From positions 1 to 64,000 of the forward strand of contig PLBO01000151.1 of assembly GCA_003134555.1 (NCBI GenBank): a stretch of 64,000 bases of DNA, written 5' to 3'. The DNA comes from Actinomycetota bacterium. Its GTDB lineage: Bacteria > Actinomycetota > Acidimicrobiia > IMCC26256 > PALSA-610. Made by a program: the position numbers and the translations under genes. Positions 37,142-53,898 of the stretch are shown here, in pieces. The notes beneath the pieces were generated by a model, which was not told where the DNA came from, ran no database searches, and worked only from the letters and a program-made list of their open reading frames with translations. Positions within the stretch are counted from its first letter, which is position 1. Each line of letters starts with the position of its first letter.

Positions 37142-38065
37142 CTAGCGCCGGGCGGACGCGAAGCGCGACGAGACGATCCGCGCGACGACGGTGAACACGA
37201 ACACGATAACGATGAGTGTCAACGCGGCGCCCCACGCCCGGTCGGCTGCGGCCGGGAACGGCGTCTGCGCGTTGAACCAGATCTCCTGGGACAGCGTGGT
37301 GTTCGTGCCCTGGAACACGTTGGCATGCACTTTGCTCGTGACCCCGATGGTGAGGAGCAACGGCGCCGTCTCTCCGGCGGCGCGCGCAACGGCGAGCATC
37401 GCGCCGCTGACGATGCCCGGCAGGGCCGCCGGGATCGCGACCGAGACGACGGTGCGCCAGCGCCGTGCGCCCAACGCGTCGCTCGCCTGCCGAAGGTCGT
37501 CGGGGACGAGCTTCAGCATCTCCTCGCACGACCGGATGACGATCGGCAGCATGAGCGCGGCGAGCGCGAGCGACCCGGCGAATCCCGAGTAGCCGAAGTG
37601 GAGACCCGCGCTGACCCAGATGGTCGCGACGAAGAGACCCATGACGATCGACGGCACGCCGGTCATCACGTCGGCCATGAACCGGATGACGTTGGCGATG
37701 CGACTCTGGCGCCCGTACTCGTTGAGGTAGATGGCGGCGAGCACGCCCAGGGGTATCGCCATCAACGAGGCGGCCCCGGTGATCACCAGCGTGCCGACGA
37801 TGGCCGGCGCGATGCCGCCGCCGGGGAACTGCGTGACGATGGGCAGGTTCTTGGTGAGGAAGCTCAGGCTCATCACGCCCGCGCCCCTGCTCACCACGTA
37901 TACCGCGATCACGACGACCGGCACGAGCGCGAAGAGCAGCGATCCGATCATCCACGACGTCGCCAGCCCGTTGGCGAGGCGACGACGCGGTGAGACGGCG
38001 CGGTCGAGCATCCAGGCCTCCGGATCGTCGCGGTTCGTCGGTGCCGGGGGGCTGGCGACGGTCAT
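37142..38065 (-). CDS. pstA: phosphate ABC transporter permease
   Basis: A 307-residue inner-membrane permease of the Pst high-affinity phosphate importer. It has six hydrophobic helices and the EAA loop for contact with PstB (D-A-L-G-A-R-R-W-R-T, about 205-214; later A-R-A-A-G-E-T-A-P-L). The start overlaps the stop of pstC (ATGA). Third gene of the pstSCA operon on the minus strand; its ATPase is encoded separately at 41206 on the other strand. Confidence 0.93.
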   Translation of the reverse strand: MTVASPPAPTNRDDPEAWMLDRAVSPRRRLANGLATSWMIGSLLFALVPVVVIAVYVVSRGAGVMSLSFLTKNLPIVTQFPGGGIAPAIVGTLVITGAASLMAIPLGVLAAIYLNEYGRQSRIANVIRFMADVMTGVPSIVMGLFVATIWVSAGLHFGYSGFAGSLALAALMLPIVIRSCEEMLKLVPDDLRQASDALGARRWRTVVSVAIPAALPGIVSGAMLAVARAAGETAPLLLTIGVTSKVHANVFQGTNTTLSQEIWFNAQTPFPAAADRAWGAALTLIVIVFVFTVVARIVSSRFASARR

Positions 38066-39045
38066 CGTCCGACTCCCGACATGGCCGAGGCCCGGTTCGC
38101 CACGACGCGGGCGACGATGTTGACGACGATGGTGATCGCGAAGAGGACGACGCCCATCCCGATGAGCGCGGCGCGGTGCAGGTCGGTCGCCTCGGGGAAG
38201 TTGTGCACGATTACCGACGCCATCGTGTCGCCCTGACGGAACAGGTGCAACGTCAGCTGGTGGCTGCTTCCGATGACGAGCGCGACCGCGATCGTCTCAC
38301 CCATCGCGCGCCCGAGCCCCAGCATCGCGGCGCCGATCAGGCCGCTGCGCACGCGGGGGAACACCGCGACGCGCAACATCTCCCAGCGGGTCGCACCCAT
38401 CGCGAGCGCGCCGTTCTTGTCGTCCTGCGCGACCGTCGCGAGGACGTCGCGACTGAGCGACGTGACGATCGGCGTGATCATGACCGCGAGGACCAAACCC
38501 GCGGTCATGAAGCTCGCACCGAACGCCGGACCTCCGAAGAAGGTGCTGAGGATGGGCACCCGACCGATCGTGTCGGCGATGTGCCCGTAGAAGCGACCGG
38601 CAGGTGGCGTGAGCACGGCGAGCGCCCAGAATCCGTACACGACCGAAGGAATCGCGGCGAGGAGATCGACGACGTACGTCACTCCGGATCGCACACCCTT
38701 GGGCGCGAGCTCGGTGATGAAAAGCGCGATGCCGATGCTGGCCGGGACCGCGAGGCCGATGGCGATGACGGCGGTCAACATCGTCCCGTACACGAAGTCG
38801 AGCGCACCGAAATGGTCCAGGTTCGGGTTCCAGCTCCGGCTGGTGACGAAGCTCCAACCCTGGTGCGCGAACGCCGGCCAGGCGTTGCTCGTTGTGGAGT
38901 ACGCGATGAGGGCGAGGATCGCGAGCACGAGCAGGCCGGCGGCGAAAGCGATCGCGCGAAACATGCGATCGACCTGCTTGCCGCCGGCCGCGCTCGGCAG
39001 TGGTTCGCTCGCGCCGAGGTCGGGAGACGGGGCGAGCGTGGTCAT
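38062..39045 (-). CDS. pstC: phosphate ABC transporter permease
   Basis: A 327-residue Pst permease with six membrane helices, the pocket motif A-I-P-S-V-V-Y-G-F-W and the EAA loop A-L-A-M-G-A-T-R-W-E, ending G-R-A-M-G-E-T-I-A-V-A-L. Pairs with PstA. The ATG has its own -10 TAGCGT 7 bases upstream, whose TAG is the pstS stop codon, so pstC could be transcribed both from the pstS promoter and leaderlessly from this site. Confidence 0.93.
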   Translation of the reverse strand: MTTLAPSPDLGASEPLPSAAGGKQVDRMFRAIAFAAGLLVLAILALIAYSTTSNAWPAFAHQGWSFVTSRSWNPNLDHFGALDFVYGTMLTAVIAIGLAVPASIGIALFITELAPKGVRSGVTYVVDLLAAIPSVVYGFWALAVLTPPAGRFYGHIADTIGRVPILSTFFGGPAFGASFMTAGLVLAVMITPIVTSLSRDVLATVAQDDKNGALAMGATRWEMLRVAVFPRVRSGLIGAAMLGLGRAMGETIAVALVIGSSHQLTLHLFRQGDTMASVIVHNFPEATDLHRAALIGMGVVLFAITIVVNIVARVVANRASAMSGVGR

Positions 39046-39052
39046 CGAGCCG

Positions 39053-39058
39053 ACGCTA
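39053..39058 (-). promoter_or_regulatory. -10 element TAGCGT built on the pstS stop codon
   Basis: On the minus strand TAGCGT begins with the pstS stop TAG and lies 7 bases before the ATG of pstC (39045). There is no ribosome binding site for pstC. Confidence 0.45.
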
Positions 39059-40129
39059 GGCGGGGATCTGGAGCTTCGTCAGCTGCGCGATCGCCTTCTG
39101 CTGCAACTCGGTCGGCAGCTTGGCGTAGTTCGCGCCCTCGGCGAGGGCCTGACCGTCGTTGAGCACGAACGTGAGGAAGCTCTTCAGCGCCGTGCCCTTG
39201 GTCTTGTCGGTCTGCTTCTCGTACACGATGATCCACGTGGGCGAGGTGATCGGGTAGGTATCGGCGCCCGACTCGTTGAGCGGGCTGTACGTCAGGTCGT
39301 CCTTGACGGTCGCCGACGCCACGGCCGCGGCTGCGCCCGCAATGCTCGCGGTCACGAACGAACCCGCCGCGTTCTTGATCGACGCGAACTTCAGCTTCGC
39401 GCCCAGCGCGTCGGCGAAGTCGACGTAGCCGATCGCGCCGTCCGTCGACGAGACCGCCTGCGCGACTCCCTGGTTGCCCTGTCCGGCCTGCGAGTTCGAC
39501 GGCCAATTGACCGTGTCGCCGCTGCCGAGCGTCCAATCGCTTCCGCCTGCGGCGGCGAGGAATTTCGTGAAGTTGCTCGTGGTGCCGGAGGCGTCCGCTC
39601 GGTGCACCGCGACGATGTTGGTCGCGGGCAGGGTCGCGCTGCCGTTGTCACCTTGAATCGCCGGGTCGTTCCACTTCGTGACCGTGCCGGCGAAGATCTT
39701 GGCGATGGTCGGGGCGGTCAGCTTGAGCGAGTCGACACCGCTGACGTTGTACGACACCGTGATCGGGGCGGCGACAGTCGGGAAGTAGAGGATTGCGCCG
39801 CCCTGGTACTTCGGGACATCGGCGGCCTTCACGAGGCTGTCGGTCCCGGCGAAGTCGACCGTCTTGGTCTGCAGGTCGGTCTTGCCCTTACCGGAACCGC
39901 CGCCGGCGTAGTTCACCGTGATTGCCGAGTTCGCGTTCTGGAACGCCTGGATCGCGACCTGGTCGAACGTCTTTTGGAACGTCGAGCCCGAACCGTTGAG
40001 CGTCGTCTTGATCGAGCCCGAACTGCTCGGCGTCTTGGAGCTGCTGCCGCACGCGGCCAGGAGGAGGGCAGGCGCGACGAGCGCGATGACCGTGCGTCGT
40101 GCTACCCGAGACGGTCGCATCGATGCCAT
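39056..40129 (-). CDS. pstS: phosphate-binding lipoprotein
   Basis: A 357-residue phosphate-binding protein. A signal peptide ends in L-L-A-A-C (about C25), so it is a lipoprotein. The phosphate-binding segments are visible: G-S-G-S-T-F near 44, F-A-G-T-D near 87, and H-R-A-D-A-S-G-T-T-S near 172-181. It delivers phosphate to PstC/PstA. The ATG at 40129 is used; another lies 9 bases downstream. Upstream are PHO-box-like repeats, fitting induction by phosphate starvation. Confidence 0.93.
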   Translation of the reverse strand: MASMRPSRVARRTVIALVAPALLLAACGSSSKTPSSSGSIKTTLNGSGSTFQKTFDQVAIQAFQNANSAITVNYAGGGSGKGKTDLQTKTVDFAGTDSLVKAADVPKYQGGAILYFPTVAAPITVSYNVSGVDSLKLTAPTIAKIFAGTVTKWNDPAIQGDNGSATLPATNIVAVHRADASGTTSNFTKFLAAAGGSDWTLGSGDTVNWPSNSQAGQGNQGVAQAVSSTDGAIGYVDFADALGAKLKFASIKNAAGSFVTASIAGAAAAVASATVKDDLTYSPLNESGADTYPITSPTWIIVYEKQTDKTKGTALKSFLTFVLNDGQALAEGANYAKLPTELQQKAIAQLTKLQIPA

Positions 40130-40204
40130 CAGGTGTGTCCCCTTTCGGAGGTGGGCGTGAGTGTCCACACTAAGAACGAAGGATGGCTACACGACCGCCT
40201 CGAA

Positions 40205-40221
40205 GTGAACGACACGTGAAT
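40205..40221 (-). promoter_or_regulatory. PHO-box-like repeats upstream of pstS
   Basis: Read on the minus strand, ATTCAC (40221-40216) and GTTCAC (40210-40205) begin 11 bases apart, the spacing of GTTCACC-type direct repeat units bound by actinobacterial PhoP/RegX3. They lie about 75 bases before the pstS start. Confidence 0.55.
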
Positions 40222-40264
40222 CACGTCCGAACAATCGGCGATGTGCGGCGCGAAGCCGGTGCAC

Positions 40265-40945
40265 CTACACCGGTTCGGCGTCGCCGGGCAGCTGTCCGGT
40301 GATCATGAATTCGACCCAGCGCCCGATCATCACCGCGTGGTCGGCGGCGCGTTCGTAGTCGCGGCCGACGAACGCGAGCTGAACCGCCATCTGGAGCGCC
40401 GCCTCGTCGGTCGACTCGCCCGAGAAGCCGGAGAAGATGGCGCGGAACAGCTCCTTTTGGAGGTCGTCCATCACGTCGTCCATGTCGGGCAGTGCCGACG
40501 CGATGGCCTCGTCGCCGTCGGCGAACGCGTCGACCGCAAGGTGGGTCTGAACGCTGGCCTGGGCGCCCATGCGCTCGATGATTCCCCGGATCCGCGGCGG
40601 GAGCTCGCGGGGGTACAAACGCCGGGTGGCCCGGGCGACGTTGCGCATGAGCCCGCCCGTGAGCTCGATCTCGTGCAGTATCCGAAGGACCGCGAGCAAT
40701 GCCCGGAGGTCGGAGGCCATCGGCTGTTGAAGCGCGAACAGCTGGTAGACGCGGTGCTCGATCTGCAGCACGCGCTCCTTGATCTCGCGGTGCGCCTCGT
40801 AGATCTCGTCGACGACGGTGAGATCGGCGTCGAGCAGGGCCTGGGTGGCGGCACCGATCTGCTCGCAGCTCTTGACGGCGAGCTTCACTACCTCGGCTCG
40901 AACTTCGTTGACCTGCTCGTCGAACGTCCGCCGGGTCTCGACCAC
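40265..40945 (-). CDS. phoU: phosphate signalling protein PhoU
   Basis: A 226-residue all-helical protein made of two PhoU repeats, each with the acidic E-x3-D-x3-H/N pattern (for example E-I-Y-E-A-H-R-E and D-Y-E-R-A-A-D-H-A). It links the Pst transporter to the sensor kinase, signalling phosphate sufficiency. The GTG at 40945 follows GGAGGAC, a strong ribosome binding site, and gives the usual PhoU length; a longer frame to 41038 would run into the PHO-box region. Confidence 0.92.
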
Positions 40946-40999
40946 AATGTCCTCCGAAATTCGATCAGTTCGGCGTGAGTCTGCCCCCGAAAATGCCTG

Positions 41000-41065
41000 G
41001 TTCACGGGCACCCGCACGAGCCTCCGCCCGCTGTTCACTCGTGGTTCACCAACCGGTCATCCGTA
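41000..41065 (+). promoter_or_regulatory. PHO-box-like repeats between phoU and pstB
   Basis: GTTCACTCGTG (41033-41043), GTTCACCAACC (41044-41054) and GGTCATCCGTA (41055-41065) are three adjacent 11-bp units. Another GTTCAC at 41000 is 33 bases upstream, in the same phase. TACCAT at 41063-41068 may be the -10 of pstB. The rest of the 260-base phoU-pstB gap shows nothing else. Confidence 0.65.
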
Positions 41066-41205
41066 CCATACGGTCCGGCCAGCCGGCGTCCCTACCATGG
41101 CCATGTCGCGGGCGCTTGGCGGTGCTTCGGTCCAGCCGCGATGCTGGGCCGACGCTCATCACTCGCGGAAGGTCGGACGTGTCCTCAGCCGAACAGGGTG
41201 ACGCA

Positions 41206-42063
41206 ATGGCAATGCCGACGGTAAGTGTCCGTCCGAAGGACGCCGGTGCGAAGGGAGACGAGGAGGCCGCGCCGCACGCGTCGCGTGCGGAGGTCGTCTT
41301 CGACCTTCGAGACGTCAGCGTCAGCTATTTCAACGTCGTCGCGGTCGCCGGCGTGACACTCGATGTCCACCAAAACGAGATCACCGCGTTGATCGGTCCG
41401 TCCGGCTGTGGCAAGAGCACGTTGTTGCGTTCCTTCAACCGCATGAACGACCTGGTGGCCGGCGCGCGGGTGTCGGGCCATATCTCGTATCACGGTCACG
41501 ACCTCTACGCCCCGAGTGTCGATCCGGTCGAGGTGCGCCGGCGCATCGGTATGGTGTTCCAGCGACCGAACCCGTTCCCGAAGTCGATCTACGACAACGT
41601 GGCGTTCGGGCCGCGCATCAACGGCCGGCGCAAGGGCCTCGACGACATCGTCGAGGAGGCGCTCGTGAACGCCGTCCTCTGGGACGAGGTGAAGGGCAAG
41701 CTCAAGCAGTCGGCGTTCACGCTCTCGGGCGGACAGCAGCAGCGGCTGTGCATCGCGCGCTGTCTCGCGGTGCAACCCGACGTGATCCTCATGGACGAGC
41801 CCTGTTCGGCGCTCGACCCGATCGCGACCTCGCGCATCGAAGACCTCATGGCCGATCTCAAGCGCGACTACACGATCGTGATCGTGACCCACAACATGCA
41901 GCAGGCCGCTCGGGTGTCCGACATGACCGCGTTCCTGACGGCCGAGGTCGACGAACACGATCACCGGGTCGGTCGGCTCGTGGAGTACGACTCCACCGAC
42001 AAGATCTTCACGAACCCCTCCGACGCGCGTACCGAGGGATACATCACGGGTCGATTCGGATGA
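41206..42063 (+). CDS. pstB: phosphate ABC transporter ATP-binding protein
   Basis: A 285-residue ATPase that drives Pst import. Walker A is G-P-S-G-C-G-K-S-T (64-72), the ABC signature L-S-G-G-Q-Q-Q-R begins near 173, and Walker B V-I-L-M-D-E-P is near 193. Forward F-Q-R-P-N-P-F-P is typical of PstB. An N-terminal extension of about 30 residues is variable. It is separated from pstSCA and transcribed with the kinase/regulator pair. ATG at 41206 chosen over one six bases on. Confidence 0.94.
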
Positions 42064-42085
42064 ACCGGCTCACCCGGCCTCGATC

Positions 42086-43333
42086 GTGACGGCGTTCTTC
42101 GTCGTCTTCGGTCTGGTCGGGTGGGCGGTCGTCGTGTTCGTCGCGCGCGAGCTGGTCCTGGCCCGGCGCGAGCTCGCCCGGGCCGGGCGTGCGGTCGACG
42201 TTCCCGACAACCTCTCGTTGGTCGACGCGATTGCCGAAGGGCAGCGCGAGGCCGACGATCGGGTGCTGCAGTCGGAGGCGGTGCAGCACTGGTTGCTCGC
42301 GGCACTCGACGAGTCGAGCGACGCGATCGTCGTGATCGATCGCATCGGCCGTGAGATCGTGCGCAACTCGGTCGCGCGCCGCTTCGCCGGCGCGCGCACG
42401 GGGGAGGTACTCGCCGAGGAGGCCATCGCGGAACTCGTGCAGGACGCGCTCACCGGCCACAGCTCCGAGCGTGAGCTCCAGCTCTACGGCCCGCCGCGCC
42501 AGGTGCTGCAGCTGCGCGCATTTCCCTTGCGGCGCGACGGCGAGATCGTGGGCGCGGTTGCCTTCACCCGCGACATCTCCGAGGCGCGTCGGGTCGAAAG
42601 TGTCCGGCGCGACTTCGTCGCGAACGTCAGCCACGAGCTCAAGACCCCGATCGGCGCGCTCGGCCTGCTCGCGGAGACCATGGCCGCCACGGACGACGTC
42701 GCCGTGGTGCAACGGCTCGCCGACCGCGTCGTGCGCGAGGCCGACCGGCTCGCGCGCATCGTCGACGACCTCCTCGATCTCAGCACGATCGAGGCCCAGG
42801 AGGCTCCGACCCGCGCACCCATGCCGATCCGGCTCGTCCTCTCGGAGTGTGTCGACATCGTGCAGGCTGCCGCCGACGCGGCCGAGGTCCCGCTCCTCGT
42901 CGGACCGGAGCCCCCTGATCTCGAGATCTTCTGCGATCCCCGCCAGATGCGCAGCGCGCTGGTGAACCTGATCGACAACGCGATCAAGTACTCGGGTCCG
43001 GAGCAACCGGTCGAGATCGGTGCGTGCGTCGTCGACGACCGGATCGCGTTCGTCGTGCGCGACCACGGCATCGGGATACCGACGCGTGATCTCGAGCGCA
43101 TCTGGGAGCGCTTCTACCGCGTCGACCGGGCGCGCAGCCGCGACACGGGTGGCACCGGGCTCGGGCTCGCGATCGTGCGTCACGTCGCCCAGGCACACGG
43201 TGGTGAGGTCACCGTGCATTCGCGCGAGGGCGAAGGGTCCACGTTCACGCTCTACGTACCGCTCGCGAACGGCTCCGCGCGCGGCATCGCCGAAACGACA
43301 CCGACGGAGGACCGATGGCCGACCCGCCCCTGA
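42086..43333 (+). CDS. senX3: phosphate sensor histidine kinase (SenX3/PhoR-like)
   Basis: A 415-residue kinase. One short N-terminal membrane helix (about 3-20), a PAS-like segment (about 68-175, D-A-I-V-V-I-D-R-I-G-R), the HisKA helix with H183 in N-V-S-H-E-L-K-T-P, then the ATPase domain with N-box N-L-I-D-N-A-I-K-Y-S, G1 D-H-G-I-G-I-P and G2 G-G-T-G-L-G-L-A. This one-helix-plus-PAS form matches actinobacterial SenX3/PhoR kinases that read Pst activity through PhoU. Start GTG 22 bases after pstB; end overlaps the regulator gene by 19 bases. Confidence 0.88.
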   Translation: MTAFFVVFGLVGWAVVVFVARELVLARRELARAGRAVDVPDNLSLVDAIAEGQREADDRVLQSEAVQHWLLAALDESSDAIVVIDRIGREIVRNSVARRFAGARTGEVLAEEAIAELVQDALTGHSSERELQLYGPPRQVLQLRAFPLRRDGEIVGAVAFTRDISEARRVESVRRDFVANVSHELKTPIGALGLLAETMAATDDVAVVQRLADRVVREADRLARIVDDLLDLSTIEAQEAPTRAPMPIRLVLSECVDIVQAAADAAEVPLLVGPEPPDLEIFCDPRQMRSALVNLIDNAIKYSGPEQPVEIGACVVDDRIAFVVRDHGIGIPTRDLERIWERFYRVDRARSRDTGGTGLGLAIVRHVAQAHGGEVTVHSREGEGSTFTLYVPLANGSARGIAETTPTEDRWPTRP

Positions 43334-44028
43334 TTCTCGTGGTCGACGACGAGCAGTCGTACCGCGACGCGCTCACCGTCGCGCTGCAACGCGAGGGTTT
43401 CCTCGTCGAGACCGCGGCCGACGGCCCGGAGGCGATCGAGCGTTTCGACGCGACGCGCCCCGCGCTGGTCTTGCTCGACGTGATGCTCCCGAAGATCTCG
43501 GGCATCGACGTGTGTCGCGAGCTGCGGGCGCGATCGCGTGTTCCGATCATCATGGTCACCGCCAGGAATGCCGAGATCGACGCGGTCGTGGGCTTGGAGG
43601 TCGGCGCCGACGACTACGTGAGCAAGCCGTTCCGCCTCCGCGAGCTGATCGCCCGGGTGCGGGCCCTGCTCCGGCGACTCCCCGTTTCCGAACAGGATGC
43701 CGATCCCGCCGACGTGATCGAGGTCGGCGACGTCCGGCTCGACGCCGGGCGGCACGAGGTGTTCGTGCGGGGGATGGCGCTGGCCTTCCCGCTCAAGGAG
43801 TTCGAGCTGCTCGAGCTGCTCCTGACGAACGCGGGACGCGTGCTCACGCGTGACGTGCTCATCGACCGGATCTGGGGACCGAACTACTTCGGCGACACCA
43901 AGACGCTCGACGTGCACGTGAAGCGGCTGCGGTCGAAGATCGAGATCGATCCCGCGAATCCGAAGCGCATCGTCACCGTCCGTGGCGTCGGCTATCGCTA
44001 CGAACGCGCGGCGGCCGTCGCTTCGTAA
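43315..44028 (+). CDS. regX3: phosphate response regulator (RegX3/PhoP-like)
   Basis: A 237-residue OmpR/PhoB-type regulator. Receiver residues are D11, D12, D55 (phosphorylated) and K104 in S-K-P-F. The C-terminal winged helix (about 135-232) ends in R-G-V-G-Y-R-Y. It is the likely protein that binds the GTTCAC direct repeats in this island. Overlaps the kinase gene, so the pair is coupled; ATG at 43315 with GGAGG just upstream (43306-43310). Confidence 0.92.
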   Translation: MADPPLILVVDDEQSYRDALTVALQREGFLVETAADGPEAIERFDATRPALVLLDVMLPKISGIDVCRELRARSRVPIIMVTARNAEIDAVVGLEVGADDYVSKPFRLRELIARVRALLRRLPVSEQDADPADVIEVGDVRLDAGRHEVFVRGMALAFPLKEFELLELLLTNAGRVLTRDVLIDRIWGPNYFGDTKTLDVHVKRLRSKIEIDPANPKRIVTVRGVGYRYERAAAVAS

Positions 44029-44040
44029 GCGTCGTAGCGC

Positions 44041-45678
44041 TCACTCGGTAGGAACGGGTGCCGTCTGCGATCGTCGCTTGCGGAGTTGCAGGCCGAGAGC
44101 CGGGGGTCCGAAGACGGCGAGCAGTGCCACCACGCCGGCCACGACGTAGAGCAACAGGGGCAGCGGATCCCGGGCCGCCGGCGCAGAGATCGGTCCGCCG
44201 GCCACGTCGAGGCTCTGATCCGCCGCGGGCGCGACCGACTGACCCCCTGCGCCTGCGGCGCTCTTTCCCGTTGCGAGCTTCGTTACCGCGGAGCTCTTGC
44301 CGGTCGTGCGCGTACCGGTTCGGCCGGAGCTCCCGTTTGTTCCGCCACTTGACAGCCCCGATCCTCCGGACGCCGTGCCGCTCCCGGCCGGAGCCGCGGT
44401 CGTCGGCGGCGTTGCACCTTGCCGGTCGCTCGGCGGCGGGGGAGGTGCGTTGTTGGTGACGAAGTTCCCGGTAATCGTCGGATTGTCGCACTGGTCGATC
44501 GGCGGTGGCTCGACGTGGCCCGGAATCTTGCGAATGACGTCGAAGTCGGCCTGCACGAGATTCTTCGGCAGCGGCGAATAGCCGAGCAGGGCCGCTTCCT
44601 GCTGTCCGGCACACGCCACGTAGAGGATGAACTTGCTCAGTGTCTTGCCCTTGTCGGCGTTGAACGGCGGTGCCGTCGACGTCGGCACGATCATGTAGCT
44701 GTAACTGGAGACGGGGTACGCGCGCGCGTCGGGGAACGCGTAGACACCCGAGAGATTCTGCGTGAGGTCGGGGTTCAGCTTGGCGCCCTGGAGCGCGATG
44801 GCCACGGCGTTCGGAGTCGGCTGCGTGTAGTAACCCGCGTGGTTGAGGATCGACGCCACGGGAAAGCCTCGTTGCTTGGCGTAGCCGTATTCGACGTAGG
44901 TGATCGCACCGTTGTTGTACGGCGCGGCCACGTAGTCGGCGACGCCGTCGGAGAATTGCTGCTGCGTCGCGTTGATGTCGGGCCACAGCGACACGGCCGG
45001 GCACGGGTTCTGGTGGAGGCCGGACCGTGCGCAGAACGCGTTCCACAGGTCCCGCGTCTGGCTGGCCATGAACGCGCTGAACTGCGCGGTCGTACCCGAT
45101 CCGTCGGATCGCACCACGGGCCGGATCGGGAGGTTCGGGAGGTGTAGTTGCGGGTTGTCGGCCGCGAGCGCCGGATCGTTCCAGTTGGTGATGACCTTCG
45201 TGAAGATCTTCGCAAGGTTGGTCGGCGAAAGCCGGAGACTCGTCACGAGGCTGCCGTTGATCGAGAGGTGATACATGAACGACGTCCCGCCCGCGACGTC
45301 GGGGAGATACGCGTAGGGTCGATGCGCGGCAAGCGCGATTTCGTCGGTAGAAACGGTGCCCGTGGCGTCGGCGTACGCGGCAGTGAACGGGATCTCCGAC
45401 GCGGCGAAGTCGACCTGATCCTGGTAGAAGAACACGCGACCGGAGGTCGAGCCGACCCCCTGGAAGTTGATCGACAGGCCCTGACGAGCAACGTCGGCGG
45501 ACCACTGGTTGAGTGCGATCTGGACCCAGGTCGAGCCCGCACCGTCGATGCTCGCGTCGGCGTACGCCGGTCGGGCCGCGACGGGCACGAGGACGCTCAC
45601 GATGATCGCGAAGACCGCAACACGCGCGAGCACGCGGCCGCCCCGACGCGGTATCGCACGCGTGACGAGCCCGATCAT
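44041..45678 (-). CDS. pstS2: membrane-anchored PstS-like phosphate-binding protein
   Basis: A 545-residue PstS homologue with a signal peptide (V-L-V-P-V-A-A-R-P-A-Y-A-D, cleavage near 40) rather than a lipobox. The PBP domain spans about 42-400, with G-A-G-S-T-W near 46 and R-S-D-G-S-G-T-T-A near 195. It is followed by a Ser/Thr/Pro/Gly-rich stalk of about 100 residues and a C-terminal membrane helix (near 505-530) with a basic tail R-K-R-R. So the protein is held in the membrane by its C-terminus. The start overlaps the pstB2 stop (ATGA). Fourth gene of the pstC2A2B2S2 operon. Confidence 0.88.
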   Translation of the reverse strand: MIGLVTRAIPRRGGRVLARVAVFAIIVSVLVPVAARPAYADASIDGAGSTWVQIALNQWSADVARQGLSINFQGVGSTSGRVFFYQDQVDFAASEIPFTAAYADATGTVSTDEIALAAHRPYAYLPDVAGGTSFMYHLSINGSLVTSLRLSPTNLAKIFTKVITNWNDPALAADNPQLHLPNLPIRPVVRSDGSGTTAQFSAFMASQTRDLWNAFCARSGLHQNPCPAVSLWPDINATQQQFSDGVADYVAAPYNNGAITYVEYGYAKQRGFPVASILNHAGYYTQPTPNAVAIALQGAKLNPDLTQNLSGVYAFPDARAYPVSSYSYMIVPTSTAPPFNADKGKTLSKFILYVACAGQQEAALLGYSPLPKNLVQADFDVIRKIPGHVEPPPIDQCDNPTITGNFVTNNAPPPPPSDRQGATPPTTAAPAGSGTASGGSGLSSGGTNGSSGRTGTRTTGKSSAVTKLATGKSAAGAGGQSVAPAADQSLDVAGGPISAPAARDPLPLLLYVVAGVVALLAVFGPPALGLQLRKRRSQTAPVPTE

Positions 45679-46496
45679 CCGAAACGACCCGTGACGTAGT
45701 CGAGCGTGCGCTGATCGTCGGGTTCGAAGAACATCTTCTCGGTCGGACCCTGCTCCACGATCTCTCCCGGTGCACCCTCCGCCGCGAGGAAGAACGCACA
45801 GTGTTGCGACACACGCGCGGCCTGATGCATGTTGTGCGTGACGATCACGATCGTCACCTGCTCGCGCAGCTCGTCGATCGTCTCTTCGATCCGCCGCGTC
45901 GACGTCGGGTCGAGGGCGCTGCACGGTTCGTCCATGAGCAGGATCGCCGGTTGCACGGCCAGTGCTCGCGCGATGCACAGCCGCTGCTGCTGGCCGCCCG
46001 AGAGCGCGCCGCCCGCGGCACCGAGCCGGTTCTTGACCTCGTTCCAGAGCCCGGCCCGCCTGAGGCACTCCTCCACCAGTGCCGATGTCTCCGAGCGCGA
46101 CAGGCGCTGACCGGAGAGCTTCAGGCCGGCGACCACGTTCTCGGCGACTGTCATCGCGGGGAACGGGTTCGGCTTTTGGAACACCATGCCGATGGTGCGA
46201 CGGATGTCGGTGACGAGCAGCTCCGAGCGGTAGATGTCGACTCCGTCGATGCGAATCGTTCCCGCGAGCGATGCACTGGGAACGAGTTCGTGCATGCGGT
46301 TGAGAATCCGCAGGAACGTCGACTTGCCACAGCCCGAAGGGCCGATGAGCGCAGTGACCCGATTCGCCTCCATGTCGAGGCTCACACGCTGCAGAACCTT
46401 GTGCTCGCCGAACCACGCGCTGACGTCCTCGGCGACGAGGGAAGAGGCGCGTGACGACGTGGCCGCACGGGTCGTTGGCACGTCGATGACATCCAT
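45675..46496 (-). CDS. pstB2: second phosphate ABC transporter ATP-binding protein
   Basis: A 273-residue PstB with Walker [10 protein letters not shown] (52-60), signature L-S-G-G-Q-Q-Q-R, Walker B I-L-L-M-D-E-P and the PstB-typical F-Q-K-P-N-P-F-P. It shares the signature blocks of PstB1 but differs in the rest, so it is a separate paralogue and not a recent copy. Belongs to the second Pst operon between pstA2 and pstS2. ATG at 46496, 5 bases after pstA2. Confidence 0.93.
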   Translation of the reverse strand: MDVIDVPTTRAATSSRASSLVAEDVSAWFGEHKVLQRVSLDMEANRVTALIGPSGCGKSTFLRILNRMHELVPSASLAGTIRIDGVDIYRSELLVTDIRRTIGMVFQKPNPFPAMTVAENVVAGLKLSGQRLSRSETSALVEECLRRAGLWNEVKNRLGAAGGALSGGQQQRLCIARALAVQPAILLMDEPCSALDPTSTRRIEETIDELREQVTIVIVTHNMHQAARVSQHCAFFLAAEGAPGEIVEQGPTEKMFFEPDDQRTLDYVTGRFG

Positions 46497-46501
46497 GGTG
46501 C

Positions 46502-47644
46502 TCAAGCGAGTCCCTTTCGCGCGAGTCGGATACGACGGAGGCGGCTGATGTGGCCCGGTCCGCGGCCGCCGATGAGGCGGGCCGCGATGAACAGGACGAG
46601 CACGATGCCGAGGAGCACGAACGCGCCTGTCCACGCCCGGTCGATCGAGGCGGTCTGCGGGAAGCGAATGAGCCGGTACACGAACAGCGGGAGGGCGTCT
46701 TGTTTGCCCTTCAGCGGATTCGCGTTGAACGACGTGTTGCCGAGCGCGGTCAGGATCAAAGGCGCGGTCTCACCGATGACCCGAGCGACACCCAGGATCA
46801 CGGCGGTGAGGATTCCGCTACGCGCGGTCGGGAGCACGACGCGACGGAAGGTGCTGTAGTCGCCGCCACCGAGCGCCAATGAGGCCTCGCGGAGTCCCCC
46901 GGGGACGAGCCGCAGCACCACCTCCGCGGTGCGCGTCACCGTCGGGAGCATGAGCACCGAGAGCGCGAGAGCCGCGGCCAAGCCGGTCTGAGTCTGGTGC
47001 AGCGCGATGATGAAGGCGGCGTAGATGAACAAGCCGGCCACGATCGAGGGGATGGCGCTCATCGCGTCGACGATCATCCGCACGGGTCGCGCGAGCCTGC
47101 CACCGACCTCACTCAAGAACACTGCCGTCGCCACGCCCAACGGCACCGAGAGCACGACCGCGATTCCCACCATTTCGAGCGACCCCGCGACGGCGGCGGA
47201 CCCGCCCCCTTGGGTCGCGGAGCTCAGCGGTCCGACGTGGCTCTGGTCCTGTGTGAAGAACTGGGGCCGGAAGGCGTGGTAGCCGCGCATGACCGTGTAA
47301 CCGACGATGAGACCGAGCGGGATCAACATTCCCAGGCCGACCGTCGCGACGACGATGCCGACCAGCCGGTCGCGCGCTTGGATGGCCCCGACTCGCTCTC
47401 GTGCGATGAACCACGCCGTCGCGAGGAACAGGGCGTACCAGGAGACGAAGAAGCCAAGCATTCCCGACAGCGGCGTGAGTCGTTCGTAGATCAACCACGC
47501 CAGGCAGAACGAGCCCAGCGCGGCGGCAGCGAGGTCGGTCGCATCGGATCGACGAAATGCGCGCGGGCGAAGCCGGTTGTCGGGGAGCTCGTTTCGAGTG
47601 AGCTCGACTTCGCTCGCCCGCGCAGGAGTGGTGGTGGAAGCCAT
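46502..47644 (-). CDS. pstA2: second phosphate ABC transporter permease PstA
   Basis: A 380-residue PstA, about 70 residues longer than PstA1. The N-terminal extension carries two extra hydrophobic helices (L-A-A-A-A-L-G-S-F-C-L-A-W-L and F-F-V-S-W-Y-A-L-F-L-A-T-A-W) before the usual core; the EAA loop A-S-L-A-L-G-G-G-D-Y and V-I-G-E-T-A-P-L-I-L follow. The role is the same as PstA: phosphate passage. ATG at 47644, 8 bases after pstC2. Confidence 0.92.
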   Translation of the reverse strand: MASTTTPARASEVELTRNELPDNRLRPRAFRRSDATDLAAAALGSFCLAWLIYERLTPLSGMLGFFVSWYALFLATAWFIARERVGAIQARDRLVGIVVATVGLGMLIPLGLIVGYTVMRGYHAFRPQFFTQDQSHVGPLSSATQGGGSAAVAGSLEMVGIAVVLSVPLGVATAVFLSEVGGRLARPVRMIVDAMSAIPSIVAGLFIYAAFIIALHQTQTGLAAALALSVLMLPTVTRTAEVVLRLVPGGLREASLALGGGDYSTFRRVVLPTARSGILTAVILGVARVIGETAPLILTALGNTSFNANPLKGKQDALPLFVYRLIRFPQTASIDRAWTGAFVLLGIVLVLFIAARLIGGRGPGHISRLRRIRLARKGLA

Positions 47645-47652
47645 ACCTGTCG

Positions 47653-48654
47653 TCAGATCTCCGTCGCCGCACCGGAGCGCGAACGCGCGACCACGATCGA
47701 CGCGAGGGCGTTCACGATGAGAGTGATGACGAACAAGGTCAATCCCGCGGCCATCAGCGCGCTGATCCCGAACTGGTTCGATTCCGAGAACCGCAAGGCG
47801 ATCAGCGACGCGATCGAGTTGCCACCCGTCTGCAGCACGTGCGTGAGGGAGTGCGGGTCGAACAAGGGCGAGATGATGAGCGTGACCGCGATCGTCTCGC
47901 CCAGCGCGCGGCCGAGCCCGAGCATCGAGCCGCCGATGATCCCGCCTCGCCCGAAGGGCAGCACGACGGTCTTGATCACTCCCCACTTCGTGCCGCCGAG
48001 CGCCAACGCGCCCTCCTTCTCGCCGGGCGGGGCCTGCGAGAACACCTCGCGCATGACCGCGGTACAGATCGGCACGATCATCAGCGCGACGACGATGCCG
48101 GCGATGAAGGTCGATGCCGGATAGCTCCCGAGGTTCTCGGGATTCTTCGTGTGGAGGAACGGTACGAAGCCCAAATGGCTGCCCAGCCAGCGACTCAACT
48201 CGATCGCATGCGGCTGGAGGTACGCGCGTCCCCACAGGCCGTAGATGAGGCTGGGTATGGCGGCGAGGACGTCGATGAACGACGTCAGCGGGCGTCGGAG
48301 ACGGGCCGGCGCGTACTCGGTGACGTAGAGCGCGGCGCACATCGACACGGGAACGGCGATGCCCAACGCGATGAACGCGATCAGAAAGGTGCCGAGCAAT
48401 GCCGACCACACGCCGAACTGACCGAGGGACGGCGCCCACGTGGAGCGCGTGAAGAAGCTGAAACCCGCGACGTGGAGCGCTTGCCACGACCGAACGGCGA
48501 GGAAAAGACCAATCAGGGCCATCAAGGAGAGCGTGAGCGCGCCGCTCGCCCGCACGATGAGGCGGTAGATCCGGTCAGCACCTGAGCGCGTGATTGCGAT
48601 GGCGACGCGCGGCTCTTCCGACGCGGTTACGAGCACATCGCTGAAGGGGGACAA
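47653..48654 (-). CDS. pstC2: second phosphate ABC transporter permease PstC
   Basis: A 333-residue PstC with six membrane helices, A-I-P-S-L-I-Y-G-L-W and the EAA loop A-L-A-L-G-G-T-K-W-G, then G-R-A-L-G-E-T-I-A-V-T-L. It heads the second Pst operon. The TTG at 48654 is favoured by GGGAG 7 bases upstream; a GTG at 48636 is the alternative. PHO-box-like repeats occur 70-90 bases upstream, so the second system is probably also induced by phosphate limitation. Confidence 0.91.
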   Translation of the reverse strand: MSPFSDVLVTASEEPRVAIAITRSGADRIYRLIVRASGALTLSLMALIGLFLAVRSWQALHVAGFSFFTRSTWAPSLGQFGVWSALLGTFLIAFIALGIAVPVSMCAALYVTEYAPARLRRPLTSFIDVLAAIPSLIYGLWGRAYLQPHAIELSRWLGSHLGFVPFLHTKNPENLGSYPASTFIAGIVVALMIVPICTAVMREVFSQAPPGEKEGALALGGTKWGVIKTVVLPFGRGGIIGGSMLGLGRALGETIAVTLIISPLFDPHSLTHVLQTGGNSIASLIALRFSESNQFGISALMAAGLTLFVITLIVNALASIVVARSRSGAATEI

Positions 48655-48726
48655 GAGGCTCCCAAGCCGTCGTGTTCGACGCGGGCGGCGTCAGCAGTTA
48701 TTCGAGCCGCTCGCCTTGTCCGACGA

Positions 48727-48743
48727 GTGACCTCCGGGTGAAC
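48727..48743 (-). promoter_or_regulatory. PHO-box-like repeats upstream of pstC2
   Basis: On the minus strand GTTCAC (48743-48738) and GGTCAC (48732-48727) begin 11 bases apart, the same arrangement as before pstS1 and pstB1. They could also serve the divergent gene at 48800. Confidence 0.55.
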
Positions 48744-48799: not shown

Positions 48800-50914
48800 G
48801 TGTTAGCAACGATGACGCGCTCGGCGAGACGTCCCGACGTGTGCCGGAGGAACTCGGTGAGATCGCGCAGGATTCCGATTGGTCGCGAGACACGGCTCGT
48901 GGTCGCGCGCGATGCGGCAACCGACTCCTACAGGAGGCCCGCCGCGCTCGTCGCGCTCGTAGTGCTCGTGTGCTCGTTCGCAGTGTTCCTCGGCCGGCCG
49001 GTTGGTGCCGCGACCGGGCGCCAAGCGGAGGTGATACCGCCGAACGATCTCACCGATCAGGTGGTCGAAGTCCGCTGGCAGGGCTTCGACCCGACCCGGT
49101 CCGACGGCACCTTCGGTGTGGTGATCCTGGAGTGCGTCGCCAAGCCGAAGTCGGTCCTCGCCGACTGCGACGCCGCCCTGACGTTCCCGCTGTCGGTGTC
49201 CGGCAACCAGCAGTCGGGCGTCACCCGCAGCGACGGCACGGGCCGGACCTTTATCGACATCATGACGACGGCGCGGCTTCCGAAGCTCGCGTGTAGTGAG
49301 ACCAAATCGTGCTCGCTGCTCGTGTACGAGCAGACCCCAGCTGGTTTCGATCCGAACGGCTTGCCTTCCGCCCGCGCGCTCGTGCCTCTGAGTTTCCGCA
49401 AGAGCTCCGCCGACTGCCCGCCCGTGAAGCGCTTCGACGCCCGCGTCGAGACCGAGGCGTCTTCGGCGCCGGCGCTCTACCAATGGGCGGCCGACCTGTG
49501 CGGCGGTGAGCACGCGCTGACGCTCAACGTCACCAGCACGTCTTCGGACCAGGCTCGTGCCGACTTCTTCGACCGCAATGTCGACGTCGCAGTCTCGTCG
49601 CTCCCGCCCCAGCCCGGTGACGCCGGGCCCAAGGCGCCGAACTTCACGGTCGCCCCGATCGACCTGACGGCCGTAGTCGTCGCGTACAACGTGATCGACC
49701 CCGTCACGAACCAGCCGATCACCGATCTGACCCTGACTCCTCGACTCGTCGCGCGCCTGATCAGCGACTCCGACGTCCTGACGTTCTTCGACGATCCGGA
49801 GTTCAAGAGACTCAACCCCAATCACACGTTCCCGCTGCAGGGCACCGACCCCGGTTTGCGCGCCGAGCAGAATGCCGACACCTGGATCGTCACCAACTGG
49901 CTCAACTCCGACCACGCCGCTCGCGCGTTCCTCGACGGCCATGACGCGTATCGCAAAGACGTCGCGCCGGAGTGGAAGGGAATCGATTACCCGACCAAGG
50001 TCTTCGACGCCCGGAGCCAGAACGGTGTGTACTTCCCACGCCTCGGCGAGGCGGGCGTCGCCGAGCGACTGTTCGCCCATACGAAGCCCGCCGACACGGT
50101 GCCCGCGAGCCCGATCCAAAACGGATTCTTTGCCGTTCTCGACCTGCCCGCGGCGCAGCAATTCGCGCTGCCGATCGCGAAGCTCACTACGGGCGTCGGC
50201 AAGCCGGTCGTGACGCTCAGTGCGCGCAGCCTCACGGCGGGATACACCGCGATGACCACCACGAAGGATGGTTTTCACGTCGAGCCCAGTGCGCCGACTG
50301 ACCTCGGGGCGTGGCCGCTCACCAAGGTCGACCACGCGATGTTCCCGACCTCGTTCGTGAACACGACGGTCGGTGTACAGCTACAGCGTCTGCTCGACTA
50401 CGCCGTCGGACCCGGGCAGCAGACGGTACCGAACGGGTACGCGCCGCTCCCTTCCGCCCTCGTCGCGCAGACGAGGGCGGTTGCGGCGGCGCTCACGCCG
50501 CATCCGATACCGACCACGACATCGACGACGTTGGGAACGACGCCCACGACACCGGTTCCGCCTCCGTTCGTCGCGCCCACCGGTTCCGCCTTCAACCCGT
50601 CGCTCGGCGGCGTGAACGCGGACGGAAGCTCCGCGCAAACGAATCTGCCCTCCACGTCGGCGACTACCGGAACCGAGCCGACGGGAAGCGCGACTCCGAC
50701 GACGACGGCGCGTGCGGCCGCGAAGTTCGCGGCACTGCGGCTTCCGAGCGCCGGAGACCACCTCGTGGTACCGGTCGCGTTAGCCGTGGCGTTTCTGGCC
50801 TTGTTCGGCTGTGCTGCCGACGGGTTCGGGCGCCGCGCGATTCGATGGATCAACTCGGCCCGGGTTCGGCGAAAAGCGTCGAGGCTTTCCGTCACGGAGC
50901 AGCCGGCCCCATGA
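48800..50914 (+). CDS. surface PstS-like protein with degenerate LPXTG signal
   Basis: A 704-residue secreted protein. A hydrophobic helix near 48-66 is the signal peptide. Residues about 75-200 form a cysteine-bearing beta-rich domain (V-V-E-V-R-W-Q-G-F-D). About 210-580 look like a PstS-type binding domain. A Thr/Pro stalk (590-645) leads to L-P-S-A-G at 648-652, then a membrane helix and a basic tail (R-R-A-I-R-W, R-V-R-R-K). That is the layout of a sortase sorting signal with Ala in place of Thr. The gene is coupled to the sortase-like gene by ATGA. Start GTG at 48800; an ATG at 48812 is possible. Ligand probably phosphate by context; not shown. Confidence 0.72.
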   Translation: MLATMTRSARRPDVCRRNSVRSRRIPIGRETRLVVARDAATDSYRRPAALVALVVLVCSFAVFLGRPVGAATGRQAEVIPPNDLTDQVVEVRWQGFDPTRSDGTFGVVILECVAKPKSVLADCDAALTFPLSVSGNQQSGVTRSDGTGRTFIDIMTTARLPKLACSETKSCSLLVYEQTPAGFDPNGLPSARALVPLSFRKSSADCPPVKRFDARVETEASSAPALYQWAADLCGGEHALTLNVTSTSSDQARADFFDRNVDVAVSSLPPQPGDAGPKAPNFTVAPIDLTAVVVAYNVIDPVTNQPITDLTLTPRLVARLISDSDVLTFFDDPEFKRLNPNHTFPLQGTDPGLRAEQNADTWIVTNWLNSDHAARAFLDGHDAYRKDVAPEWKGIDYPTKVFDARSQNGVYFPRLGEAGVAERLFAHTKPADTVPASPIQNGFFAVLDLPAAQQFALPIAKLTTGVGKPVVTLSARSLTAGYTAMTTTKDGFHVEPSAPTDLGAWPLTKVDHAMFPTSFVNTTVGVQLQRLLDYAVGPGQQTVPNGYAPLPSALVAQTRAVAAALTPHPIPTTTSTTLGTTPTTPVPPPFVAPTGSAFNPSLGGVNADGSSAQTNLPSTSATTGTEPTGSATPTTTARAAAKFAALRLPSAGDHLVVPVALAVAFLALFGCAADGFGRRAIRWINSARVRRKASRLSVTEQPAP

Positions 50915-51843
50915 GCGCGGCGTCGACGACGGTGACGTCCGACCGTGCGTTCGAGCTGCGTCCACACGAGCCGGCTGTCGCGGAGTTCGAACCGACGAGC
51001 ACGACTCCTATCGCGGGCGAAGCGCTCGAGGTCGGGATCGTGTTGCGGCGAGGCCTCCGCGTGTTCGCCGCGGCCGTCGTGGCGTTCGTCGTGTTCGCGC
51101 TGTGGCTGTCGGGCCTTGCCCAGGCACGGAGCCAGGTCGGTCTGCAGCGACGCTTTCGCGCCGAGCTCGCGTCCGCGCAGGCGCCGGTCGGCGGCGCGAT
51201 CCCGGCGGGTGCCCCGGTCGCGATCGTCGAGATCCCGCGTCTTCACCTGCACGAGGCCGTCGTGGAGGGCGCGCGCAGCGGCCAGCTGCGCGAAGGTCCC
51301 GGCCATGTCGTCGGTACGCCGCTGCCGGGCCAGCCGGGCAATGCGGTGCTCGCGGGGCGGCGCACGATCTACGGTGCTCCGTTCCGGCACCTGAGCGCGC
51401 TGCGCCGTGGAGACAGCATCACCGTCACGACCGGCCAGGGCCGCGCGAAGTACCGCGTCGTCGGCGTCGTCGAGCTCGCGAGCAGCGACGGATCCTTCGT
51501 GCAGGACCATGCCGACAATCGGCTCACGTTGTTCACCTCCGCGTCGCGTTGGACTGCGAGTAGCCGGCTCGTCGTGTCCGCGACCCTCGTCGGCGATCCC
51601 TTTCCTGCCACGGCGCTGCGCCGCGCCCTCGACCCGGACGGCCTCGGTCTGACCGGCGAACGGAGCGCCGTCCCGTACGCGCTCGTGTGGCTCGAGCTGT
51701 TGGCCGTCGCGGCACTGATGACGGTTTTCGCGGCGTCGCGATGGTCGAAGATGACGACCTGGGTGGTCTTCACGCCGGTGCTCGCGGCCGCACTCTGGCT
51801 CTTCTTCGAGAACGCGGCGCGTCTGTTGCCCGCGACGCTGTGA
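50911..51843 (+). CDS. sortase-fold protein lacking catalytic His and Cys
   Basis: A 310-residue membrane protein of the class E/F sortase type: N-terminal membrane helix (about 48-70), sortase barrel (95-230) and two more C-terminal helices (about 253-275 and 284-305). In active sortases the barrel has G-H-R-T-x-Y-G and T-L-x-T-C. Here the first is A-G-R-R-T-I-Y-G (R150 in place of His), and the second is L-T-L-F-T-S (S210 in place of Cys). The Arg of the triad remains (R219). It therefore cannot work as a cysteine transpeptidase. It is coupled to the upstream protein with the changed sorting signal. Possible roles: binding or displaying the PstS-like protein without cutting it. Confidence 0.78.
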   Translation: MSAASTTVTSDRAFELRPHEPAVAEFEPTSTTPIAGEALEVGIVLRRGLRVFAAAVVAFVVFALWLSGLAQARSQVGLQRRFRAELASAQAPVGGAIPAGAPVAIVEIPRLHLHEAVVEGARSGQLREGPGHVVGTPLPGQPGNAVLAGRRTIYGAPFRHLSALRRGDSITVTTGQGRAKYRVVGVVELASSDGSFVQDHADNRLTLFTSASRWTASSRLVVSATLVGDPFPATALRRALDPDGLGLTGERSAVPYALVWLELLAVAALMTVFAASRWSKMTTWVVFTPVLAAALWLFFENAARLLPATL

Positions 51844-51965: not shown

Positions 51966-53177
51966 GTGCGAAATCGACTGACCAGGCTGGGCGTCGTCGC
52001 GGGAGCCGTAGTGTCTGCCGTGATGGCGGCGTCAGCACTACCTGCGGGCGCGGCGCCCATTCCGAACACGGGGCCGACGATCCTGACGTGTGGCGTCACT
52101 GCCGGGGTCTGCCAGCATTCGCTCGGCCAGGCGGGCTCGGACACATCCTTTTGGATGATGAACGGCATCGCTCCGCAGTACAACGTGAACACGACGAAGA
52201 ACGTGAACACCGACTACGTCACCGAGATCCCGCCCGTCAACAGCGCGCCGTTCCCGGCGGGCACCTACGTGCCCGAGGACAACGTCGCGCCGGGCTACCT
52301 CTGGGACTCATTGACCACGGTCAATGGCCCCTGCGGTGGCGGGAGCACGCCGCCGAACGGCTCGTCGGCGGGTATCGCATGCCTGCTGGCGGACAAGACC
52401 GGCCAGGTCGACTTCGCCCGCTCGTCGCGGGGCCGCAAGAGCACTGACCCGGCGAACCTCGAGTTCTGGGCCTACGCCATCGGCGCGGTCGACTGGGTCA
52501 AGTTCCCGGGCTCGCACGCGCCCGCCACCCTGACGCCGACCCAGCTCATCAACATCTATACCTGCTCGGCGTCGACGCACCTCCCGATCGTCTCCAACTG
52601 GAATCAGGTCGGCGGCACCGCGGGTGCGATCGTCAAGTACGCGCCCCAGACCAGCTCCGGTACGTACAGCTTCTTCAACTCGAACGTGCTGAACGGCAAC
52701 ACGATCGACGCGAACTGCGACGCGAGCCACTTGTCGACGTTCCTCCAGGAGCACGACGCCCGCGCAGTGACGCTGGCTACCAAGCCCGGCGCCATCTACG
52801 CGTTCGACTACGCACGGTGGACCGCGCAGTCGAAGCAGTTCGAGGCTGACCTCCGCAACGGTGCGACGCTCGGCCAGATCAACGGCGTGGCCCCGAGCAC
52901 AACGACCGTCAACCCGGCGGGAACCTTCATCGACTCCCGCTGGATCTACAACGTGGTGCGCACGGACGCCCACCCGTCGTCGTACACGACCCAGACCGCG
53001 GACGTCCGGAAGTTGATCGGCGTGACGGCTTCGCCGTCGTCGACCGGCTACCTCTGCGCCGGCCTCGCGGCCCAGGCGATCACCCTCGCCGGCTTCGTGC
53101 CGATCGGGTCGGGTGTCACCGGCGGCTCCGGTAACCCGAACTCGACCTGCCGGTTCGAGCCGACTCCGATTCCGTAA
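51966..53177 (+). CDS. secreted PstS-like substrate-binding protein
   Basis: A 403-residue exported protein. A signal peptide ends near A-G-A-A-P (about residue 30), without lipobox or membrane anchor, so it is free in the cell envelope. The rest is a PBP-type fold with C-G-V, G-S-D-T-S-F-W-M-M near 57 (phosphate-loop-like) and many cysteine pairs (C42, C49, C123, C136 and others). It differs from PstS1 and PstS2 and is probably for a phosphate ester or organic ligand. GTG start after GGGAGGC. A single GTTCAC lies at 51908, too little to call a PHO box. Confidence 0.75.
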   Translation: MRNRLTRLGVVAGAVVSAVMAASALPAGAAPIPNTGPTILTCGVTAGVCQHSLGQAGSDTSFWMMNGIAPQYNVNTTKNVNTDYVTEIPPVNSAPFPAGTYVPEDNVAPGYLWDSLTTVNGPCGGGSTPPNGSSAGIACLLADKTGQVDFARSSRGRKSTDPANLEFWAYAIGAVDWVKFPGSHAPATLTPTQLINIYTCSASTHLPIVSNWNQVGGTAGAIVKYAPQTSSGTYSFFNSNVLNGNTIDANCDASHLSTFLQEHDARAVTLATKPGAIYAFDYARWTAQSKQFEADLRNGATLGQINGVAPSTTTVNPAGTFIDSRWIYNVVRTDAHPSSYTTQTADVRKLIGVTASPSSTGYLCAGLAAQAITLAGFVPIGSGVTGGSGNPNSTCRFEPTPIP

Positions 53178-53202
53178 TCTGCTCGTCGACTTCGACAAAC
53201 GA

Positions 53203-53237
53203 TCGGAGGTCCCGGCAACGGATGCCGGGACCTCCGA
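53203..53237. terminator. perfect 15-bp inverted repeat
   Basis: TCGGAGGTCCCGGCA (53203-53217), loop ACGGA, then its exact reverse complement (53223-53237). It follows the PstS-like gene by 25 bases and is followed by CTCGTTTC rather than a U-run; a strong GC-rich hairpin of this kind probably stops or protects the upstream mRNA. It is the strongest hairpin in the window. Confidence 0.75.
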
Positions 53238-53262
53238 CTCGTTTCACGCTCTGGAGGTATAC

Positions 53263-53898
53263 GTGGTCATCGCTGCGACCCGTCGGCGCGCCGGACAGAT
53301 GCTCGCGGTCGGATTGGGGACGGCCGTTGTCGTCGCGGGCTGCGGGAGCAGCAGTCACCCGAAGGCATCGCCGAGCTCGACGACTTCGACCACCTACACG
53401 ACCTCCACAACTTCTCCGAGCACCTCCGGATCGACGTCGATCCCGCGGACGGCCTCGACGGAGGATCCGAACCAGCTGTACAACCCGATCCCCTTCAACG
53501 TCGGCGACGTGGTGGGCCTGCCCAACGGCTGGAGCATGCAGGTCAGGAAGGTGAAGCTGTCGTATGCGCCGGCCGGACTCGCGGCCGCGCCGGACGGCCA
53601 GCAGTACGTGGGCGTAGAGATCAAGATGGTGAATGTCGGGCCCGAAGCGGTGAGCGTGAACGCCACGAAGATCTTCACGATCGCCGACGACAGGAACGGG
53701 CAGCATCCGGCGGTCGCCGTCGCCGGGCATCCGAACGGTCTCGACGGCAGCTACGCCCCCGGCACCGGCCGCACCGGCGAGCTGGTCTTCGCGGTGCCCT
53801 TCGGGCGCCAGTTGCGCATGTTGCTCGACGGGCCGGCGATCGGGACGCAGCGCACGGTGTTCCAGATCGACCCGCCGAAAGTGCCCCCGCGCGACTGA
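53263..53898 (+). CDS. DUF4352-like lipoprotein
   Basis: A 211-residue lipoprotein. The signal peptide ends in V-V-V-A-G-C (C26); a 45-residue Ser/Thr-rich linker follows, then a C-terminal immunoglobulin-like domain (about 80-205) with V-G-V-E-I-K-M-V-N-V-G and G-R-T-G-E-L-V-F-A-V-P, the pattern of the DUF4352/telomeric-repeat-binding-factor-2-like family. Such proteins often sit near surface binding proteins; function unknown. GTG at 53263 after CTGGAGG. Convergent with the peroxiredoxin gene. Confidence 0.78.
   Translation: MVIAATRRRAGQMLAVGLGTAVVVAGCGSSSHPKASPSSTTSTTYTTSTTSPSTSGSTSIPRTASTEDPNQLYNPIPFNVGDVVGLPNGWSMQVRKVKLSYAPAGLAAAPDGQQYVGVEIKMVNVGPEAVSVNATKIFTIADDRNGQHPAVAVAGHPNGLDGSYAPGTGRTGELVFAVPFGRQLRMLLDGPAIGTQRTVFQIDPPKVPPRD

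Follow-up and report, generated by a model that had tools for sequence, protein, structure and literature searches.

Cysteine-less sortases encoded in actinomycetote pst loci, possible docking components of a Pst-type phosphate importer

The locus and its products

In the window, by which we mean the whole stretch of 64,000 nucleotides analysed, two overlapping genes on the forward strand lie beside genes for a Pst-type ABC importer. The upstream gene (48800-50914, true start uncertain) encodes a PstS-fold, membrane-anchored protein, hereafter the partner, and the downstream gene (50911-51843) a sortase-fold protein of 310 amino acids, hereafter the pseudo-sortase; both frames are open and share the ATGA at 50911-50914, in line with the initial annotation. 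Sortases are cysteine transpeptidases which normally attach proteins to the cell wall. The sortase fold of the downstream product, proposed from its sequence, was borne out by a Pfam Sortase match (7.6e-23, residues 106-227), by a profile search of solved structures, which also returned sortase, and by an AlphaFold2 model (pLDDT 86) that superposed best on 4d70 (Z 21.6, rmsd 2.0 over 154 residues) and on class E sortase structures with Z 18.1. Among subfamilies the best match was NCBIfam class E, NF033747, at 95.4 bits, below its cut-off of 160. The protein has an N-terminal transmembrane helix within residues 36-87, an extracellular barrel of about residues 100-230, two C-terminal helices (253-277 and 280-304) and the C-terminus LLPATL.

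Alignment with active homologues placed Arg150 (codon 51358-51360, forward strand) at the position of the catalytic His and Ser210 (51538-51540, forward strand) at that of the catalytic Cys, with the third active-site residue kept as Arg219 (51565-51567, forward strand), which agrees with the three assignments made earlier. The pseudo-sortase has no Cys in its entire sequence. Its own genome holds four PF04203 loci; the other two that were aligned, L001 and L002, have H/C/R active sites, and L004, which fell below the alignment threshold, was left out of the active-site comparison. The loss of Cys is more than a chance event, as it is fixed across the family described below while L001 and L002 of the same genome keep all three residues.

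The partner consists of a signal peptide, an N-terminal beta domain, a PstS-fold domain, a Thr/Pro linker, a transmembrane helix and a basic tail. In a 677-residue model starting at 48881 (overall pLDDT 66) the PstS-fold domain occupies residues 184-544, and the model superposed on M. tuberculosis PstS3 over 306 residues with Z 30.9 and rmsd 2.6. The N-terminal beta domain, a part that the structure comparison barely covered, may resemble neocarzinostatin. The pocket of the partner reads RAEQNADT, the phosphate-site motif RSDGSGT being replaced by RxExNAD-like letters in the profile alignment. Its C-terminal end runs, as had been noted, ...LRLPSAGD, hydrophobic helix, basic tail, with the sorting-signal-like LPSAG at 50741-50755 (forward strand) directly before the helix.

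Divergently from the partner gene, on the reverse strand, lie genes for a PstC-like permease (47653-48654), which matches pstC of relatives with E down to 1e-167, a PstA-like permease (46502-47671, approximate start) and a PstB-like ATPase (45675-46634, start codon uncertain), so that all three genes of the importer core are present. They are followed on the same strand by a gene for a second PstS-like protein with a C-terminal transmembrane anchor (44041-45690, approximate start), which matched PF12849 with 5.6e-37 and keeps the canonical RSDGSGT. On the other side, a 403-residue secreted PBP-like protein of the PstS family, without a transmembrane anchor, is encoded at 51966-53177 (forward strand), and a DUF4352 protein at 53113-53898 lies downstream of it. 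A canonical pst cluster with a sensor/response-regulator pair (37142-44028) stands directly beside the pseudo-sortase locus; it encodes PstA, PstC, a lipoprotein PstS, a PhoU-like protein and PstB, and its lipoprotein PstS operon spans 37142-42063.

The promoter shared by pstC and the partner gene carries a PHO-box-like direct repeat, GTTCACCCGGAGGTCACT (48726-48743, reverse strand), and the canonical pho/pst cluster has further such repeats, at 41033-41061 and 40204-40221. With a consensus which we take to be GTTCACC, the number of PHO-box patterns across the window was not significant (9 found, 5.3 expected). The best match in 19 divergent promoters exceeded that in random stretches of the same loci with a combined p of about 3e-10, a value that is too optimistic since these loci are related. 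Homology and the PHO-box-like element, taken together, suggest phosphate as the probable cargo.

A family of Cys-less sortases linked to pst genes

Orthologous loci were collected by searches of relatives, of the class with the partner as query, of named genomes with the narrow profile A3, and of the phylum. Among 296 genomes drawn from the phylum about ten gave a strong match, a few of which were active sortases; the nearest named relatives of the window's organism are metagenome-assembled actinomycetotes. Near-duplicate loci occur between the collections (L125 equals L035 and L144 equals L037), therefore the locus counts given here are not counts of independent events. A Cys-less sortase was present in 13 of the 13 partner loci whose contig extends beyond the partner, the remaining loci stopping at contig edges. 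When pst linkage was scored by strong homology to PstA, PstB or PstC on the fetched stretch, all 41 pst-linked sortases of the tree set lacked the Cys, and none of the 58 Cys-bearing sortases was linked to pst. Among these 41, a search for an orthologue that retains both His and Cys found none. For seven further Cys-less sortases the fetched stretch lacked pst genes, in several cases because stretch or contig was short.

In a tree built by a quick method, whose root was not inferred, all Cys-less sequences fell on one side of a single branch with SH-aLRT support of 89%. With the active-site columns removed they still lay on one side of a branch, but with weak support (9), and 45 of the 47, that of the window included, formed a starred set (98). 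By elimination, the two that fall outside it should be L048 and L074, both H-S-Q proteins, which agrees with the first tree. The N-terminal region is long in these two (L048:1422-3356 and L074:4861-7110), which make up another kind of Cys-less sortase; they adjoin a protein of 241-253 residues and have no pst genes nearby. Since the pst-linked Cys-less sortases form a supported clade, a single ancient loss of the Cys is likely and would be the simplest reading of the tree for this clade.

In weighted alignment columns the His site is H in 100% of active sortases, against R in 79%, H in 19% and K in 2% of the Cys-less ones; the Cys site is C in 100% of the former against A, S, G or T in the latter, and the Arg site is R in 100% against 43%. 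Some pst-linked members, among them L115, L118, L126, L127, L131, L149 and L151, still have the His. The motifs GPGH, PGQxG and GxPF and residues of the barrel stay conserved in the Cys-less clade, and an aromatic residue at His+4 is kept in about 93% of its members; the residues adjoining Arg150 (RTT) are not conserved. Neither a substitute Cys/His pair elsewhere in the barrel nor a replacement Cys was found when the members were searched for them, 53 of 56 family members having no Cys in the extracellular domain, and the family alignment contained no new invariant pair of catalytic type. In L037, L043 and the duplicate L144 two Cys flank the former His site, at -1 and +8, and might form a disulfide. 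Taken as a pattern of sequence conservation, that of the Cys-less clade fits a fold which was kept and a chemistry which was lost.

Coupling of the pseudo-sortase to its partner

The initial annotation had also coupled the pseudo-sortase to the protein encoded upstream of it in the pst locus, and this co-occurrence holds across the family. Partner and pseudo-sortase share a strand in 43 of the 43 loci where both were found, and lie less than 400 nt apart in about 25 of them, with the gene order reversed in G028, G038 and G043. Furthermore, in two genomes, G024 (L072, a frame of 1000 residues) and G054 (L058, a frame of 1324 residues), both are fused in one uninterrupted open reading frame that comprises a beta region at the N-terminus, a PstS-like region (profile E of 7.6e-11 and 1.2e-16, respectively), transmembrane segments and the pseudo-sortase. 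The two fusion proteins share 44% identity over 815 residues, and PstABC were not found in the fetched region of either genome. Natural fusion of this kind is good evidence that partner and pseudo-sortase have a function in common. In both fusions the transmembrane segment of the partner precedes that of the pseudo-sortase, which would place the barrel beside the juxtamembrane segment of the partner. In the Herbiconiux and Cryobacterium branch other genes lie between the two, so that the pseudo-sortase may dock other proteins.

A further claim, that the enzyme and the sorting signal of its substrate were altered together, found no support, in the form given, in the comparison of partners. A signal-like L-P/A-x-x-G before the helix was seen only in the window (LPSAG), a genome of the same genus (LASAG), L037 (LPVRG) and L106 (LPDSG), with IADTG in the L036 partner as a weaker trace; the other partners end in a transmembrane helix and basic tail without any such motif. 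LPSAG as a conserved, co-evolved signal was therefore rejected as a general feature. The few motifs might be relics of an ancestral sorting signal, for which LAXTG, the signal of class E sortases (PMC5148588), is to be considered besides LPXTG.

Interpretation and comparison with known systems

The reading that we prefer, at a probability of roughly 0.6, is that the locus encodes a Pst-type importer regulated by phosphate starvation, in which a non-catalytic sortase docks PstS-like proteins at the membrane. Its core would be the ABC importer of PstC, PstA and PstB, and its surface assembly would comprise the anchored canonical PstS-like protein, the anchored partner with its changed pocket, the secreted PBP-like protein and the non-catalytic sortase. 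The latter, presumably a class-E-type sortase with three transmembrane helices that lost its nucleophile early, would act on the outer face of the membrane as a docking or scaffold domain and hold the partner uncut beside the transporter, most likely near its juxtamembrane segment. The residues for cutting have been lost, yet the pseudo-sortase has long been kept beside or fused to the partner, and it therefore probably holds its partners; that it holds them rather than cuts them is a reasonable inference. Co-occurrence and fusion are observed; the two proteins would, on this reading, bind each other physically at such a site and have a role in phosphate capture. We put it at about even odds that this widespread actinobacterial family is a working part of a Pst-type importer induced by phosphate starvation and docks PstS-like proteins at the membrane, with the former active site possibly a binding pocket.

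Several other explanations were weighed. The former active site might be an anion pocket, in which the conserved Arg (or His or Lys) binds phosphate, a carboxylate or a phosphorylated polymer and hands it on to the PstS-like proteins. Every Cys-less member has a basic residue at the His site, the Cys site has become small, and both the pst context and the PHO-box-like repeat would suit such a pocket; however, the variable RTT neighbours and the loss of Arg219 in about half of the members make it unlikely. That the pseudo-sortase serves mainly in cell-wall attachment of the assembly, together with WxL-like and WxL-interacting proteins, is suggested by WxLIP_PGBD proteins that adjoin it in Herbiconiux (below the cut-off) and Planotetraspora, and by L058, where the stretch upstream of the fusion gene (L058:2-3014) encodes first a protein with fn3 plus a weakly matching WxL domain and then one like WxL-interacting proteins. 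We consider this quite unlikely; the window's locus yielded neither WxL nor WxLIP proteins in a search that was not exhaustive.

The active H/C/R sortases of the same genome could be what a decoy or regulator acts on, but what is conserved is linkage to pst genes and PstS-like proteins rather than to active sortases or their substrates, and such a role seems very unlikely. Catalysis through another nucleophile, here Ser210, would draw on the Ser that replaces the Cys in the window and in about a third of the members; elsewhere in the clade Ala, Gly, Met, Thr or Val stands there, most members no longer have the base His, 53 of 56 extracellular domains are free of Cys and no new invariant catalytic-type pair takes over, which leaves continued catalysis highly improbable. 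Lastly, the lost catalytic residues might mark a functionless, decaying remnant, but the open frame and the fold residues are conserved across the phylum, the operon context is kept, and fusion with the partner occurs. Decay is scarcely credible and was rejected because of this conservation.

No published description of a pseudo-sortase was found in the open-licence literature searched, which is weak evidence of absence. An old, widespread Cys-less branch of sortases in pst loci, sometimes fused to a PstS-like protein, would put the sortase fold to a new use and add a new kind of accessory component to ABC importers in Gram-positive cells. Its members may be labelled sortases by automated annotation, and cultured relatives (Herbiconiux, Cryobacterium and Nocardioides) make the idea testable.

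Among known systems, class E sortases (SrtE1 of Streptomyces coelicolor, PMC5148588; PDB 5cuw and 5go5) share with the pseudo-sortase the sortase fold and the N-terminal transmembrane helix, and active homologues of the same phylum also share its two C-terminal helices and the LLPxx end. The aromatic residue at His+4 of class E sortases is mostly kept in the clade; in our own reading of the sequence it probably corresponds to the conserved Tyr of the beta3/beta4 loop to which signal recognition has been assigned (PMC5148588). Unlike class E sortases, the clade has lost the Cys, mostly the His and in part the Arg, and the pseudo-sortase lies in a pst locus, has no conserved LAXTG or LPXTG substrate and scores below the class E cut-off. 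With the Pst importer (PstSCAB) the locus has in common PstC, PstA, PstB, PstS-fold proteins and the PHO-box-like promoter; unlike in PstSCAB, its PstS-like proteins are anchored by a C-terminal transmembrane helix, one has an altered pocket, and a pseudo-sortase is added. Clusters of WxL and WxL-interacting (DUF916) proteins resemble the loci of those relatives in which WxLIP-like genes accompany the pseudo-sortase, as distinct from the window's locus. As an analogue for docking, SipA of Streptococcus pyogenes is a signal peptidase-like protein without the catalytic dyad that keeps its cleft and is required for the polymerisation of pili (PMC4049620); it differs in fold and in system, and is likewise an enzyme of surface-protein processing turned non-catalytic and needed for surface assembly.
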